DNA of 64,000 nt from Rhizobium sp. Q54 (GTDB taxonomy: Bacteria; Pseudomonadota; Alphaproteobacteria; Micropepsales; Micropepsaceae), in contig CAMAPL010000003.1 of assembly GCA_945860165.1 (NCBI GenBank), positions 1 through 64,000 of the forward strand. The letters are read 5' to 3'. The translations under genes were made by a program, and so were the position numbers. This document shows positions 34,789 to 44,383 of the stretch, one piece after another. Position 1 is the first letter of the stretch. Every line of letters begins with the position of its first letter. The notes beneath the pieces were generated by a model, which was not told the origin of the DNA, made no database searches, and was given only the letters and a program-made list of their open reading frames with translations.

Positions 34789-34908
34789 GGCGGCGATATA
34801 AAGGAGATCAGATCGTAAGGTAAAGCTGTTTCGACACCGCTTTCGCTGGCCCACCGGACCTGCTCACACGCTTAGCGTGACGCGACGAAACTCCGCGCAC
34901 GGGCAGCT

Positions 34909-39533: not shown

Positions 39534-39955
39534 CAAGCCATTGTTTTAGTTTGGTATTTTTCCAAACAAGGTTCCGTCGTCACAAATCTGCCCATTAATC
39601 GCTTGTTGAAACCTAGTGGGCACCCTACAAAAACTGTGTCCGGCAGCGCCTTGCGATTCTCGCGGCTGCCGCGCCGCCCTGACCAAGGCCCGGTAAGCCA
39701 CGCGAGCAACGCGAGCAACGCGAGCACAACGGCCCTTCAGGTAATCTCTTTGGCTCCAAGTCCTCATCGGACCCATGGGCCCTGAAGTAGCAATGACTAT
39801 CAAATTTGCGCCCCCCTCCAACGCTGTCCCGGCCTCCTTGGCCGTTTCGACGGATGGGTTTTCGCGCGTCCTTTCCACCAACAATTCGCGCCGCTCTTTC
39901 CCGCCCGCCGCACACAGTGCCGCCGGCTTCACACACGCGCGCGCCGGAGATTTTA
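39534..39955 (+). other. Long leader region of rne
   Basis: A 422-bp region without a convincing gene. It contains, in order, a small hairpin GTTTGG-TATTTTT-CCAAAC (39549-39567) that may end the dioxygenase message, three perfect 9-bp tandem copies of ACGCGAGCA (39700-39726), and a stem CTTCAGG/CCTGAAG around a 39-nt loop (39735-39787). The last 150 bp are pyrimidine-rich. RNase E messages usually have long structured leaders for autoregulation, which this fits. Confidence 0.5.
39700..39726 (+). repeat. Three tandem 9-bp repeats in the rne leader
   Basis: ACGCGAGCA is repeated three times without mismatch. It is too short and regular for CRISPR; a length-variable leader repeat or simple slippage array is most likely. 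Confidence 0.7.
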
Positions 39956-42661
39956 ATGACCAAGCGCATGCTTATCGATGCCAACCACCCGGAAGAAACA
40001 CGGGTGGTCATTCTCGACGGTTCTAAGGTCGAGGAATTTGATTTCGAGGCCGCCTCCAAGCGGCCTCTCAAGGGAAACATTTATCTCGCGAAAGTGACGC
40101 GTGTGGAGCCGTCGCTCCAGGCTGCCTTCGTCGAATATGGCGGCAATCGCCAGGGCTTCCTGGCTTTCGCGGAAATCCACCCCGACTACTACCAGATCCC
40201 GATCGCGGACCGTCAGGCCCTGCTCGCCGAGCAGGAAGCAGATGCCCGCCGCCGCCAGGAAGACGATATTGAATCCTTCGAGATCACCGGCCCCAAGGCG
40301 GGCGGCTCCGACAGGGACGACGAGGACGAAGAAGAGACCGGCGCCGAAACCGACAGCGGCGAGGAAACCGCCGAGATGGCCCCGCTGGTGCCGCTGGACT
40401 CCGCCCCCGACGCGGAAGAATACGAGCCCGCCGGGGATGCCGCCGAAAGCAGCCAGGATGATCACGAAGAGGTGTTTGTCAACCATGGCGGCGCACCGGT
40501 TCGCGAAGTGGCCGAACAGGAAGAAGAAGACGCCCCGGAGAGCAAATCCGAGGCCGCCGCTGCCGCACTGAACGACTATCACGGCGATCCCGAAGTCGCC
40601 GCCACCCAGCCGGCGGAGGAAAATGAACGCGAGATCGAGCCGGTCGAGGCCCAGATCGAAGTCAGCGACACCGAAGTGGTAGAAGGCGAACTGCTGCCGG
40701 CCACCGACGGCGAGCCGCAGGACGCCGAAGCCCAGGCCTTGCAGGCGGGCCGCCCGTCGCAGCGCTGGGTCCGCAAGAAGCATTACAAGATTCAGGAAGT
40801 CATCAAGCGCCGCCAGATCATCCTGATCCAGGTGGTCAAGGAAGAACGCGGCAACAAGGGCGCGGCCCTGACCACCTATATGTCGCTGGCCGGCCGTTAT
40901 TGCGTGCTGATGCCCAACACCCCGCGCGGCGGCGGCATCTCCCGCAAGATCACCAATGTGGCAGACCGCAAGCGCCTGAAAAGCGCGGCCCAAGGGCTGG
41001 AATTGCCCGAAGGCATGGGCCTGATCATTCGCACCGCGGGCGAAAGCCGCTCGCGGCTCGAGATCCGGCGCGATTACGACTATCTGCTGCGCCTGTGGGA
41101 CACGATCCGCGAAAAGACCCTGTCCTCCAATGCGCCTGCCTGCGTCCATGAAGAAGGCGACCTGATCAAGCGCGTCATCCGCGACCTCTACACCAAGGAT
41201 GTGCAGGACGTGGTGGTGGAAGGCGAGCAGGGCTACCGCAACGCCAAGGACTTCATGCGCATGCTCATGCCGAGCCATGCCAAGCACGTCCATCACTACA
41301 AGGACACGGTGCCGCTGTTCCAGCGCATGCATATCGAATCCCAGCTGGACTCTATGTTCTCGCCCACCGTCACCCTGAAGTCGGGCGGCTATATCGTCAT
41401 CAACCAGACCGAAGCCCTCGTCTCCGTCGACGTCAATTCTGGCCGCGCCACCCGCGAACATTCCATCGAGGAAACCGCGCGCAAGACCAACCTGGAAGCG
41501 GCCAGCGAAATCGGCCGCCAGTTGCGGTTGCGCGACCTGGCCGGCCTGATCGTCATCGACTTCATCGACATGGAAGAAGGCCGCAACGACCGCGAAGTCG
41601 AAAAGCGCCTGCGCGATGCGGTGAAGAATGACCGCGCCCGCGTCCAGATCGGTAAGATCTCGCAGTTCGGCCTGATGGAAATGTCGCGCCAGCGCCTGCG
41701 CGCCGGCGTCATTGCCGGTTCGACCGTCACCTGCCCGCATTGCGCGGGGCTGGGACTGGTGCGGTCCATTGAATCCACCGCCCTGCGCGTTCTGCGCGGA
41801 CTGGAAGAAGAAGCCGAAAAGAACCGCGCCGCCGCGGTGATCGTCAGGATCGCCAACGATGTCGCGATCTATGTCCTGAACCAGAAGCGCCATGAGTTGG
41901 CCCGTATCGAGGGCGAGCATGGCATGGAAATTTCCTTCGACCCCAAGAATGACCTTGCGGCCGGTACCTTTGAACTGGAGCGCACCAAGCAGCGCGATCC
42001 GTCCGAGCGCCCGCGCAATTCGGCGGTCAGCATCGAGGCTGGCTTTGTGCCGTCCAGCGAGCCCGAGCCCGAATATGATGAAGAAGTCGAAGAAGAAGAA
42101 TTCATCGACACCGAAGCCAGCCGGCCTGTTTCCGACGACGAGGACGGCGAAGAGCGCGCGGCCCCGCCGCCAGGCGAACGCGCCGAACGTGGTGGTAATC
42201 GCGAAGGCCGCCGCAAGCGCCGCCGTGGCGGACGTGGCCGCAGCCGCGACCGCGAAAGCCCGCGCCCGACCGGCGCCGACACGGGCGTGGCCGCAGCCGC
42301 GTCCACCGAGATCCAGGAAACAGTGTCTTCCGACGACAGTGAATTTGAACCGGCCCAACCCGGCGCGCCGCTGGAAGAGAATGGCGAACCGCGCCGCAAG
42401 CGCCGCCGCCGCCGTGGCCGCCGTGGCGGACGCGAGAGCGAGGATCGTCCGGCAGGATCGGAAAGCCAGGGCGGCTTTACCAAGGAGGTTGACCGCTTCG
42501 GCGCGGTGCCAGACGAGATCGACACCACGCCCACCGACACAGCGCCCGGCGCGCCGTCCATGCCGGTCTGGTCGCTGAAGGATGACATTCCCGACACTAC
42601 ACCATCGGACGACAAGTCGACCCAAAAGGGATGGTGGCAAAAGGCGTTCGGCGGCGAGTAA
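39956..42661 (+). CDS. rne: Ribonuclease E
   Basis: Endoribonuclease and degradosome scaffold, 901 residues. The N-terminal half has an S1 domain split by a long acidic insertion (about residues 100-260, rich in Glu/Asp), as is usual in alphaproteobacteria. The catalytic domain follows: VSVDVNSGRATREHSIEETA, the metal Asp in IVIDFIDMEEGRND, and the zinc link CPHCAGLGLVRS. The C-terminal third is unstructured with RRRRGRRGGR-type basic blocks and ends WWQKAFGGE. ATG at 39956 begins MTKRMLIDANHPEE. No disruption is present across 2.7 kb. The final 29 bp are repeated 86 bp downstream. Confidence 0.96.
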   Translation: MTKRMLIDANHPEETRVVILDGSKVEEFDFEAASKRPLKGNIYLAKVTRVEPSLQAAFVEYGGNRQGFLAFAEIHPDYYQIPIADRQALLAEQEADARRRQEDDIESFEITGPKAGGSDRDDEDEEETGAETDSGEETAEMAPLVPLDSAPDAEEYEPAGDAAESSQDDHEEVFVNHGGAPVREVAEQEEEDAPESKSEAAAAALNDYHGDPEVAATQPAEENEREIEPVEAQIEVSDTEVVEGELLPATDGEPQDAEAQALQAGRPSQRWVRKKHYKIQEVIKRRQIILIQVVKEERGNKGAALTTYMSLAGRYCVLMPNTPRGGGISRKITNVADRKRLKSAAQGLELPEGMGLIIRTAGESRSRLEIRRDYDYLLRLWDTIREKTLSSNAPACVHEEGDLIKRVIRDLYTKDVQDVVVEGEQGYRNAKDFMRMLMPSHAKHVHHYKDTVPLFQRMHIESQLDSMFSPTVTLKSGGYIVINQTEALVSVDVNSGRATREHSIEETARKTNLEAASEIGRQLRLRDLAGLIVIDFIDMEEGRNDREVEKRLRDAVKNDRARVQIGKISQFGLMEMSRQRLRAGVIAGSTVTCPHCAGLGLVRSIESTALRVLRGLEEEAEKNRAAAVIVRIANDVAIYVLNQKRHELARIEGEHGMEISFDPKNDLAAGTFELERTKQRDPSERPRNSAVSIEAGFVPSSEPEPEYDEEVEEEEFIDTEASRPVSDDEDGEERAAPPPGERAERGGNREGRRKRRRGGRGRSRDRESPRPTGADTGVAAAASTEIQETVSSDDSEFEPAQPGAPLEENGEPRRKRRRRRGRRGGRESEDRPAGSESQGGFTKEVDRFGAVPDEIDTTPTDTAPGAPSMPVWSLKDDIPDTTPSDDKSTQKGWWQKAFGGE
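42633..42661 (+). repeat. Copy 1 of a duplicated rne 3' end (att-like)
   Basis: The last 29 bp of rne, encoding the end of WWQKAFGGE and the stop. Together with copy 2 (42748-42776) it brackets 86 bp. The two copies differ at five positions, every one a third codon position, so both read WQKAFGGE-stop. Confidence 0.85.
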
Positions 42662-42709
42662 GAGCCTCACCCCGCCCTTCGCTATAGCTCAGTGCGTTCG
42701 CTCCCTCTT

Positions 42710-42728
42710 GCATGTCCACTGGACATGC
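42710..42728. repeat. Perfect palindrome between the two rne 3' ends
   Basis: GCATGTCCACTGGACATGC is a 19-nt perfect palindrome around a central C. It lies in the 86-bp segment between the two copies of the rne tail. Confidence 0.8.
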
Positions 42729-42747
42729 TCGCGGGCCGGTCGCTCAC

Positions 42748-42776
42748 GGTGGCAGAAAGCCTTTGGCGGCGAATAA
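42748..42776 (+). repeat. Copy 2 of the rne 3' end (att-like)
   Basis: 24 of 29 bases equal copy 1. The differences are Q (CAA/CAG), K (AAG/AAA), A (GCG/GCC), F (TTC/TTT) and E (GAG/GAA), all synonymous. It is in a different frame from rne and has no gene of its own in front of it. Confidence 0.85.
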
Positions 42777-42797
42777 CCTCCGCCAAAAGAAAAAGGG

Positions 42798-42828
42798 AAA
42801 GGCCGCGGATTTATCCCGCGGCCTTTTT
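42798..42828. terminator. Bidirectional terminator between rne and gamma-glutamyltransferase
   Basis: AAAGGCCGCGG and CCGCGGCCTTT form an 11-bp perfect stem with a 7-nt loop, with T residues on the right and A residues on the left, so it can stop transcription from both sides. Confidence 0.92.
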
Positions 42829-42837
42829 CATTGGAAT

Positions 42838-44235
42838 CTATCGGTTGGTCACGACTTCCGCCGCCGCGCCCTGACCATGGGCGCCGGGATCGGACAGTGC
42901 CACACAGGCATCGGCGTTGCAGGACACCACATTGACCGTGTCGAAGGGCGCCGCTCCGGTGCTGCGCAGGTCACCCCGCTTGCCCATCGCACGCCCACGC
43001 GCCGCTTCCAGCACCGCATACACCGCCGCTGCGGTGCCGTTCGGCCCGCCGGCTCCCACAGCGGTCAATGTCACATTGTCACCGCCGACGGCGGTCAGGG
43101 GCGTCAGAAACGCGCTTGCGAGCCCCGCCGGCCCGGTGGGCGAAGCCGCCAGCACCACACCGGTGCCGGCGGCCGTGCGGCCCGACCCGAACGGGCCGTT
43201 GAGCGTGATGGCGCAGGACGCCGTCTGGCCGTTAGTATCCACCGCAGCAAACCCGGTGGAGCCGAGATCGCGCGGCAGGCTGGCGACGCCGAAGGACGTC
43301 AGCGACTGGCGCACCGCCGCCGCGACGGCGGCCTCGCCCGTGCTGCGCTGGCGCGAAAGATTGTCGAACAGCGAACTGGTGAAAGCGCCCGCGCCGGTAC
43401 GCGCGCCAGGCTGGTAGATCACCATGTCTCCCACATTGCGTGTACGCGCCGGGCCCTGCTGGGTGCTGATCGCCGCCAGTTCATCCAGGGTGACGGCACC
43501 GCCTTGCGCCAGTGAATAGGCCTCGATACGCGCGCCGACCGCGCCCTTGTAGAAACCGTCCGCGCCGCCCAGGCGTATCTGGCCCAGCGTCAGTCCCAGC
43601 GCCGGGTTGCGCACTTCGGTGCCTGTTATGCGCGGCTGGCCGGATTCGTCCAGGAATTCCGCCGCCAGTTCCGCATCCAGGCGCACCACATTTTGCGCGG
43701 CGGCGAGCCGCACCGAGAGCGCCTGGGAAATGGGAAATCCGGTGGCGGCATAGGCCTCGGCCGGCGCCACCAAGCGTTGCCATGGCAGCGCACCGTGGAT
43801 TCTCTGCATGTCGGCAAAACCGCGCACCGCGCCCGGCACCGCATAGGCGCCGCCGCGTGCCGGCGCACGGGCCAGGAAATTGAACTCAGTGATATGGCCG
43901 CCCGCATCGCGCACCAGGCAGATGCCGCCGCTGCCCAGCCCGGCCGCCGCCGGATAGGTCACCGACAGGGTGAAGAACATGGCGGCCACGGCGTCCACCG
44001 CGTTGCCCTGGGACGCCAGCACGGATGCGCCCGCGCGCGCCGCCAGCGGCTCATCGCTCACCGCCATGCCAGCCCGGGTCGGCTCGGACACTTCGCTTGA
44101 GGTGTAACTGCGGGGCGCCTCGTCCGCGAGCCCCACCGTCGCGGCGACATTGTCGCCAATCGAAGCAATGGTATTACAGCCGCCCAGCACCAGTAGGGGC
44201 GCGGCAAGCAGGGCGGAAAGACGCTTGGACAGCAT
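42838..44235 (-). CDS. Gamma-glutamyltransferase-like lipoprotein
   Basis: 465 residues. A lipoprotein signal (LLVLGGC, Cys20) is followed by a Ggt-family fold: VSDEPLAARAGASVLASQGN, DAVAAMFFTLSVTYP, VPGAVRGFADMQRIHG and the region where the nucleophilic threonine should be, here GSTGFAAVDTNGQTASCAI. The Thr is retained, but the following His of the usual TTHFSVVD is Gly, and the protein is about 100 residues shorter than typical Ggt. Activity is possible but not assured. It is convergent with rne. The ATG at 44235 was chosen over 44340 because the signal begins there. Confidence 0.78.
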   Translation of the reverse strand: MLSKRLSALLAAPLLVLGGCNTIASIGDNVAATVGLADEAPRSYTSSEVSEPTRAGMAVSDEPLAARAGASVLASQGNAVDAVAAMFFTLSVTYPAAAGLGSGGICLVRDAGGHITEFNFLARAPARGGAYAVPGAVRGFADMQRIHGALPWQRLVAPAEAYAATGFPISQALSVRLAAAQNVVRLDAELAAEFLDESGQPRITGTEVRNPALGLTLGQIRLGGADGFYKGAVGARIEAYSLAQGGAVTLDELAAISTQQGPARTRNVGDMVIYQPGARTGAGAFTSSLFDNLSRQRSTGEAAVAAAVRQSLTSFGVASLPRDLGSTGFAAVDTNGQTASCAITLNGPFGSGRTAAGTGVVLAASPTGPAGLASAFLTPLTAVGGDNVTLTAVGAGGPNGTAAAVYAVLEAARGRAMGKRGDLRSTGAAPFDTVNVVSCNADACVALSDPGAHGQGAAAEVVTNR

Positions 44236-44383
44236 GACGCGGTTTTCATCCTGAAAATGGCTGTTTTCGAAGGGGCCTTTATGCCCCAGCGGGATCGGAG
44301 AAAGAAGTCGTATTATTTGACGTTTCGGGCCGGCGACCATACGGTTCGCACGGGGTTGGTCGAGGCATCAGGAGAATTCCGGT

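Follow-up and report, generated by a model that had tools for sequence, protein, structure and literature searches.

A hairpin-forming repeat lies between two versions of the rne gene end and beside duplicated gene ends in related genomes

The 64,000-nt stretch of Rhizobium sp. Q54 analyzed here (contig CAMAPL010000003.1, positions 1 to 64,000; hereafter the window, from genome G000) contains rne, the gene for RNase E/G, and the last codons of this gene occur twice. How did a second gene end come to lie there, and why do the two versions use different codons for the same peptide? The rne open reading frame (39806..42661, + strand; Pfam RNase_E_G, E-value 2.9e-102) has an uncertain start codon placement and a stop codon at 42659-42661. 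Its final 29 nt, here called the attached end because they are joined to the gene (42633..42661, +; GGTGGCAAAAGGCGTTCGGCGGCGAGTAA), recur at 42748..42776 (+; GGTGGCAGAAAGCCTTTGGCGGCGAATAA) in a version that we call the displaced end. Direct reading bore out the preliminary description of this DNA, which had reported two rne ends with five mismatches (24/29 nt identical), all of them synonymous third-position changes (CAA/CAG, AAG/AAA, GCG/GCC, TTC/TTT, and GAG/GAA) that leave the common stop codon TAA in place, and a 19-nt perfect palindrome (42710..42728; GCATGTCCACTGGACATGC) within the 86 bp between the copies (42662-42747).

Our analysis identified these 86 bp as a copy of a structured, dispersed repeat family, here named element E, and the right terminus of E is recurrently abutted by gene-end duplications at other genes. 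Together these observations suggest that the 86 bp are probably a small, non-coding, hairpin-forming mobile repeat that inserted in the last codons of rne, with the native gene end displaced behind it.

On DNA score alone, the rne pair is modest: it scores 19, and the 99% and 99.9% points for mismatched flanks are 16 and 28, respectively. A repeat search with a 9-nt seed listed no direct repeat at the rne ends, whose exact matches extend to 8 nt at most. The pair is nevertheless beyond chance, since the two copies share a reading frame and a stop codon and since the same layout occurs in other genomes. The copies are identical over 31/31 nt in genome G015, and they differ without any amino acid change in G071 (three synonymous differences in nine codons) and G035 (four in seven codons).

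Element E is a dispersed, covarying structured repeat of ~90 nt without protein-coding capacity. BLASTN of the 86 bp within its own genome identified similar sites elsewhere (best E-value 2.9e-8), and a degenerate version of the core (TYGCNNGTCCAYYGGACNNGC) matched 128 sites in 22 of 60 genus genomes, compared with none for the reversed control. We built a covariance model, R1, from 56 aligned and folded copies; its consensus has three internal helices (columns 8-27, 45-64, and 68-84 of 102). Helix cells are paired in 96.7% of cases versus 88.6% in shuffles, and 57 cells have changed on both sides versus 11.0 in shuffles and ≤10 with the partners slid. These three consensus helices are supported by covariation. 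The palindrome is the conserved core of E, and in other copies compensatory changes occur at two of its eight pairs; by eye, and uncounted, an extra helix encloses the palindrome and the right hairpin, with arms such as GCCTGC/GCAGGC and AATAGC/GCTATT. Also by eye, the right terminus is near-constant (CTCAC or close) and the left side is variable. At rne in the window, model R1 places E at 42669..42747 (+; 60.5 bits, E-value 1.1e-12; also aligned by BLASTN to other genome copies), with the match running on to 42763 through the model's built-in flank. This copy (63% GC) has kept the central palindrome and the terminus CTCAC, and its left and right hairpins are weakened. The window contains a second, weaker and degenerate copy at 34807..34896 (+; 37.9 bits, E-value 2.2e-7), also with a weakened left hairpin.

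Based on the model, E is present in 32 of 69 genus genomes (E-value ≤1e-3), with a single match in three of the 32. At an E-value of ≤0.01, there are 25 copies in the window's genome and 100 in G071. The pattern also matched five IMG/VR sequences: two with strong E copies, two with scores of 22.3 and 18.3 bits, and one that the model did not list. One strong copy (L465, 2498-2589; 97.2 bits) lies in a phage-like order of portal, E, prohead protease, and capsid, and the other (L468, 3193-3296; 79.2 bits) lies beside a terminase gene in a phage-like cluster, where the terminase stop codon apparently falls within the end of E (GGTGAG). With one E copy as query, plasmid and phage collections gave no match at an E-value of 0.01. 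An Rfam search of 42000-43200 returned five sub-threshold matches, none at the gathering score. A different repeat (~80 bp, core GGCCTTGTGCCGG) occurs on both sides of E, without abutting it, at ~1410 and ~1620 of L052 in G073.

For each of 168 unique elements, we compared the two flanks, using mismatched flanks as the reference; these elements are a convenience sample comprising the best pattern and model matches plus loci fetched for rne. Flank pairs scored ≥15 at 22 of the 168. At 17 elements, compared with 0.48 expected, the right copy begins ≤12 nt from the right end of E; the others (L052, L287, L314, L064, and L076) were excluded because their right copy does not abut the element. The 17 are not all independent, as rne contributes three and an epimerase gene start two, and one of them (L310, score 15) is probably a chance pair. 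The right copy begins with CC in 10 of the 17 cases. This recurrence, with the repeat beginning at the right end of the element, refutes a simple account in which the rne end was duplicated in tandem and an unrelated palindrome came to lie between the copies by chance; we give this account almost no credence even though perfect repeats do exist (G015).

The duplicated sequences include the ends of gpx (G071), greA (G030), erpA (G009), and rne (G000, G015, and G071), as well as gyrB (G071), where the gene is on the opposite strand. A ubiG-like end and a tRNA-Ala end are duplicated in G079 and a comM-like end in G086. Gene starts are represented by the 5' end of an epimerase gene, which overlaps an upstream stop codon (G075 and G024), and by that of a greB-like gene (G091). 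Terminator-like regions account for L267 and L123, and a further case, L327, is 18 nt long. In gpx, an 82-nt stretch with one mismatch is followed by a block in which the five final sense codons and the stop codon have all changed and the peptide IRKLL is kept. The names gpx, erpA, ubiG, comM, gyrB, and tRNA-Ala come from our reading of translations or sequence. Pfam assigned Fe-S_biosyn to erpA, GreA_GreB to both gre genes, and Epimerase to the epimerase (SDR) gene, and it returned no match for the 70-aa gpx piece. A protein-level search of 90 elements for more recoded copies identified none beyond the cases found at the DNA level.

Some sites have a more complex layout. On the - strand of L117 (G079) at ~760, two E-like elements lie behind a tRNA-Ala gene, and fragments of the tRNA 3' half occur both between the elements and after them; the arrangement looks like the entry of one element into the tRNA gene and of another into the displaced half. 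On the - strand of L262 (G086), at 1500-1706, a tandem pair of E copies surrounds the displaced comM-like end. Upstream of the greB-like gene, E occupies a matching place in L407 (G035) and L401 (G091); in G091, the displaced start is intact and the attached start is recoded, and in G035, the codons are normal and the stretch read contains no displaced copy.

Which copy is the native one? Single copies in relatives are similar to the displaced copy and its outer flank at three genes, gpx, erpA, and the greB-like gene. By eye, the displaced gpx end and the DNA downstream of it resemble the single copy of G079, the DNA behind the displaced erpA copy resembles that behind the single copy in G092, and the displaced greB-like start has a leader like that of G080, with a different leader on the attached start next to E. 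No sampled orthologue resembles the attached erpA end. For rne, the comparison is with G063, the sister of G000: its rne end differs by 1 nt from the displaced end and by 4 nt from the attached end.

We read 28 genomes at the rne stop codon, in most of them for ~1.5 kb downstream. E lies behind the stop codon with both rne ends in G000, G015, and G071. In G035, both ends are kept and the middle of E is lost; in G030, the contig ends within E behind rne; and in G088, a contig end precludes reading. A clear second rne end is confined to G000, G015, G071, and G035, with ≤95 nt between the stop codon and the second end. The other 22 of the 28 genomes have no E directly behind the stop codon and no clear second end in the ~1.5 kb downstream, although G024 and G079 have E-like cores further downstream of rne. 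Weak second-end matches begin 21-36 nt behind the stop codon in G087 (L383, 22/32), G090 (L394, 19/32), and G086 (L385, 18/32), and based on sequence resemblance it is possible that these are relics of the same insertion. In the same three loci, a short hairpin-like stretch similar to E's left hairpin precedes the match. The rne layout of G015 sits inside a 1.27-Mb contig, making a general assembly artifact unlikely, although most of the genomes are fragmented drafts.

We inferred a tree from 33 RNase E proteins without their last 12 residues. The five genomes that carry E or both ends at rne all fall within one 15-genome branch (support 91/94), and they need five label changes on the tree, four of them forced by well-supported branches. 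Carriers cluster no more than shuffled labels do (as low in 500 of 500 shuffles), and G063, which groups with G000 at a support of 100/99, is without E at rne. Given this patchy distribution, gain, loss, or transfer at the rne site is frequent; the tree does not tell which of these occurred.

The differences between copies are mainly synonymous. Over the 197 codons of the coding cases, there are 68 synonymous and 20 nonsynonymous differences, and 24% of random single changes would be synonymous; when the ubiG-like end and the last erpA residues are left out, the counts are 67 and 14 over 185 codons. Some copies are strongly recoded: those of erpA differ at 13 of 17 codons and the greB-like starts at 13 of 23. 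Relative to the other sampled ends, the attached erpA tail differs at 0.70 of comparable codons (natives 0.31-0.51), the attached greB-like start at 0.69 (natives 0.40-0.63), and the attached greA end at 0.55 (natives 0.32-0.55, level with one native at two decimals). The attached end ranks first in divergence for erpA (1/31), the greB-like gene (1/26), and greA (1/28), compared with ranks of 13, 22, and 19, respectively, for the displaced ends, and the erpA codons just upstream of the attached tail are normal (0.28). The attached end is not the most divergent in gpx (rank 12/31 for the whole tail and 4/31 for the last six codons) or in rne (17/17 in G000 and G035, and 2/17 in G071). It is the most codon-divergent of the sampled ends in three of five genes, rne not among them. 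We therefore rejected unusual recoding as a general rule, given the gpx and rne ranks; it is real in some genes and absent from the rne of the window.

The copies also differ in how far they agree from the right junction onward. The displaced copy is identical to the attached copy from its first base for 42 nt in L267, 27 nt in gpx, and 18 nt in L327. The leading identical run is 13 nt in greA and the ubiG-like end and 2-4 nt in erpA (2 nt), the greB-like start (4 nt), and L306. In gpx, greA, and L267, a long near-identical block at the start of the displaced copy is followed by abrupt divergence toward the stop codon. The erpA and greB-like copies, which differ almost from the start, would therefore be older or have come with a foreign end.

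In the mechanism that we propose for rne, a host or phage factor would move E by acting on its folded form, and the right end of E would join a target that often starts with CC, consistent with 10 of the 17 cases. At rne, the right terminus would have joined the gene interior at GGTGGCA of the codons for WW(Q), which would place the native last 29 nt behind E at 42748-42776. The attached version at 42633-42661 links the gene to the left side of E and leaves the protein end WWQKAFGGE intact. The left side may have been completed by re-copying of the displaced end or by recombination with another strain's E-bearing gene end; the block pattern in gpx, greA, and L267 would fit either route. Under this scheme, the displaced version would have been the native coding end until recently and the attached version would be the present one, and the synonymous nature of the differences would follow from the shaping of each version as a coding end. 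Insertions that keep gene ends intact would be those that persist. Given the presence of E in two phage-like contigs, its carriers could include phages or gene-transfer-agent-like particles; RNA-guided or integron-like movement is speculation.

One form of the left-side step is the transfer of an old occupied allele, in which E and its attached end, long present in other lineages, enter new genomes by homologous recombination and strand the native end; we regard this as a reasonable though not favored possibility. The preliminary description had offered a recombined second rne allele, and such an allele is a possible origin of the attached end. The patchy distribution at rne is consistent with transfer, as are the identical right junction GGTGGCA in G000, G015, and G071, the near-identical junctions at the epimerase start in G075 and G024, and the single difference in 29 nt between the attached rne ends of G000 and G035. 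However, the displaced copy is identical from the first base in several cases (up to 42 nt, in L267), and the right junction therefore looks freshly made in those cases. The attached erpA end, moreover, has no similar sampled orthologue, and the attached greB-like start is the most divergent row in its alignment.

A more doubtful reading treats E as a reversible gene-end insert whose occupied and empty states alternate on short evolutionary timescales, with the attached end in some genes driven to be maximally different by synonymous codons. With such alternation, each end would be maintained as a functional coding end, and the divergence might have arisen because repeats around a hairpin are otherwise deleted.

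It is also unlikely, on present evidence, that the left side arose as a long target-site duplication, in which a staggered cut of tens of bases is followed by drift, with the attached copy selected. The identity of the G015 copies over 31 nt and of the gpx copies over 82 nt but one would fit such a cut, and duplications of variable size (3-26 bp) are reported for YPAL repeats in the available text of PMC2229807. Yet free drift predicts mostly nonsynonymous differences, contrary to the 68 synonymous versus 20 nonsynonymous observed when 24% synonymous would be expected, and in gpx, greA, and L267 the divergence is arranged in blocks (in gpx, one change in 82 nt and then every codon changed). 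The copy farthest from the sampled orthologues is, in three of five genes, the attached one, which is under selection.

Integrase attachment sites in gene 3' ends, such as that of e14 in icd, have an insert that supplies the gene end with synonymous differences, and a duplicated 3' end with such differences is the classic look of these sites. The preliminary description had accordingly proposed an attL/attR pair at rne; this would be the scar of a tyrosine-integrase element that brought a recoded rne end of its own and of which all but 86 bp was subsequently lost. The part of the proposal that stands is insertion into the rne 3' end leaving two versions of it, given that single-end relatives exist and that the displaced copy is 1 nt from G063. 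Although E also occurs in two phage-like contigs, a lost larger element is very improbable. The 86 bp belong to a dispersed family with members elsewhere, and unrelated genes, too, have duplicated ends with this element between them, which argues against an integrase with one attachment site as the source. The larger insert anticipated between the rne copies of relatives was not seen in the DNA read from the 28 genomes (~1.5 kb downstream in most), and no search for an integrase was made. E differs from the e14/icd arrangement in the same respects, with no long insert seen and the same element at many genes.

Several observations weigh against the insertion of a mobile E with displacement of the native end. 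At 151 of the 168 elements, no flank pair scored ≥15 with a right copy this close to E (duplications under ~14 nt are below detection). In L424 (G014), E (from 1387) has inserted among the codons for the N-terminus of a greB-like gene and truncates the frame, and nothing is duplicated; duplication is therefore not obligatory. Nonsynonymous differences occur in gpx, greA, the epimerase starts, gyrB, the comM-like and ubiG-like ends, and the last erpA residues, and the displaced greA copy is frameshifted. When the rne copy of E is folded alone, only the central stem of the family fold is kept, with a z-score of -2.49 and 5 of 200 shuffles folding equally well. Among five other native rne ends, the displaced end is nearer to those of G036 and G091, the two are equally near to those of G001/G017 and G088, and the attached end is nearer to that of G065; the view that the displaced end is native at rne thus draws on G063, with a mixed picture elsewhere, and appears only partly supported. 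G000 and G035 have spacer and stem letters in common beside the attached end, although ~8/35 sites there differ by eye, which suggests an older shared insertion and makes a recent displacement harder to maintain. No mover was found for E, Y1 being the one transposase family examined: Y1 transposases occur in 4 of 32 E-bearing genomes versus 14 of 37 others, and with no association over 69 genomes we rejected a Y1 transposase of the type associated with repetitive extragenic palindromic sequences (REP/RAYT) as the mover.

Downstream of the displaced end, a terminator-like, GC-rich inverted repeat with a T-run (42798..42826) lies between rne and a convergent gamma-glutamyltranspeptidase gene (42838..44340, - strand; Pfam PF01019, E-value 5.1e-43). 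It was the sole such site, listed for the - strand only, with 0.5 expected in shuffles.

E fails the features tested of both REP/RAYT systems and miniature inverted-repeat transposable elements. Within the model span, it has no terminal inverted repeats, as its helices are internal and its two ends differ, and its target duplications are not of a fixed short size, ranging from 17 to 131 nt in the cases detected. From the available description, the nearest bacterial repeat in behavior appears to be YPAL (RU-2) of Yersinia, which is 168 bp long with internal inverted repeats and target duplications of 3-26 bp (PMC2229807). Like YPAL as described, E is a small structured repeat that has internal inverted repeats, is not A+T-rich, and is flanked by duplications of variable size; the part of the YPAL report available to us gives the greater length and does not mention gene-end copies with synonymous-only divergence. 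The same text describes Rickettsia palindromic elements of 105-146 bp, also inside genes, and marks their target duplication with a question mark (PMC2229807). These are likewise palindromic repeats in an alphaproteobacterium, but as described they are read in frame within proteins, whereas the studied E copies are mostly between gene ends, with the protein unchanged.

The nearest parallel in outcome, as far as the available text describes it, is found in fungal mitochondria (Glomus atp6, atp9, cox2, and nad3; Allomyces atp6), where mobile-ORF (open reading frame) inserts swap C-termini; in Glomus, the insert supplies a new C-terminus with mainly synonymous differences and the native end is stranded, close to that of a sister species (PMC3630166). 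With E, too, a new end is fused to the gene and the native end would be displaced, and a fused new end together with a displaced end like that of a relative is found at gpx, erpA, and the greB-like gene (by eye) and at rne when compared with G063. The mitochondrial insert as described differs in having a homing-endonuclease ORF and a length of several hundred bases, whereas E is ~90 nt, non-coding, and dispersed over unrelated bacterial genes. There is no endonuclease ORF in the rne insert; at 86 bp in the window and 32-95 bp in G035, G071, and G015, these inserts are too short for one. Our literature search, which covered few subscription papers, identified no previous description of a bacterial palindromic repeat that duplicates gene ends.

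Bacteria commonly harbor small palindromic repeats, whose movement is mostly not understood. An E insertion leaves a readable record: the right junction is near-constant, the native end is displaced, and a replacement is attached. Insertion direction, target choice, and age can be read from this record case by case. E shows a route by which genes (rne, gyrB, greA, and erpA among them) can be entered and left unbroken, and its flanking repeats provide a natural setting in which to test whether selection acts against their homology. If the reversible reading were true, E would represent natural synonymous recoding that stabilizes a mobile element, a protein-free bacterial counterpart of the mitochondrial C-terminus swaps.

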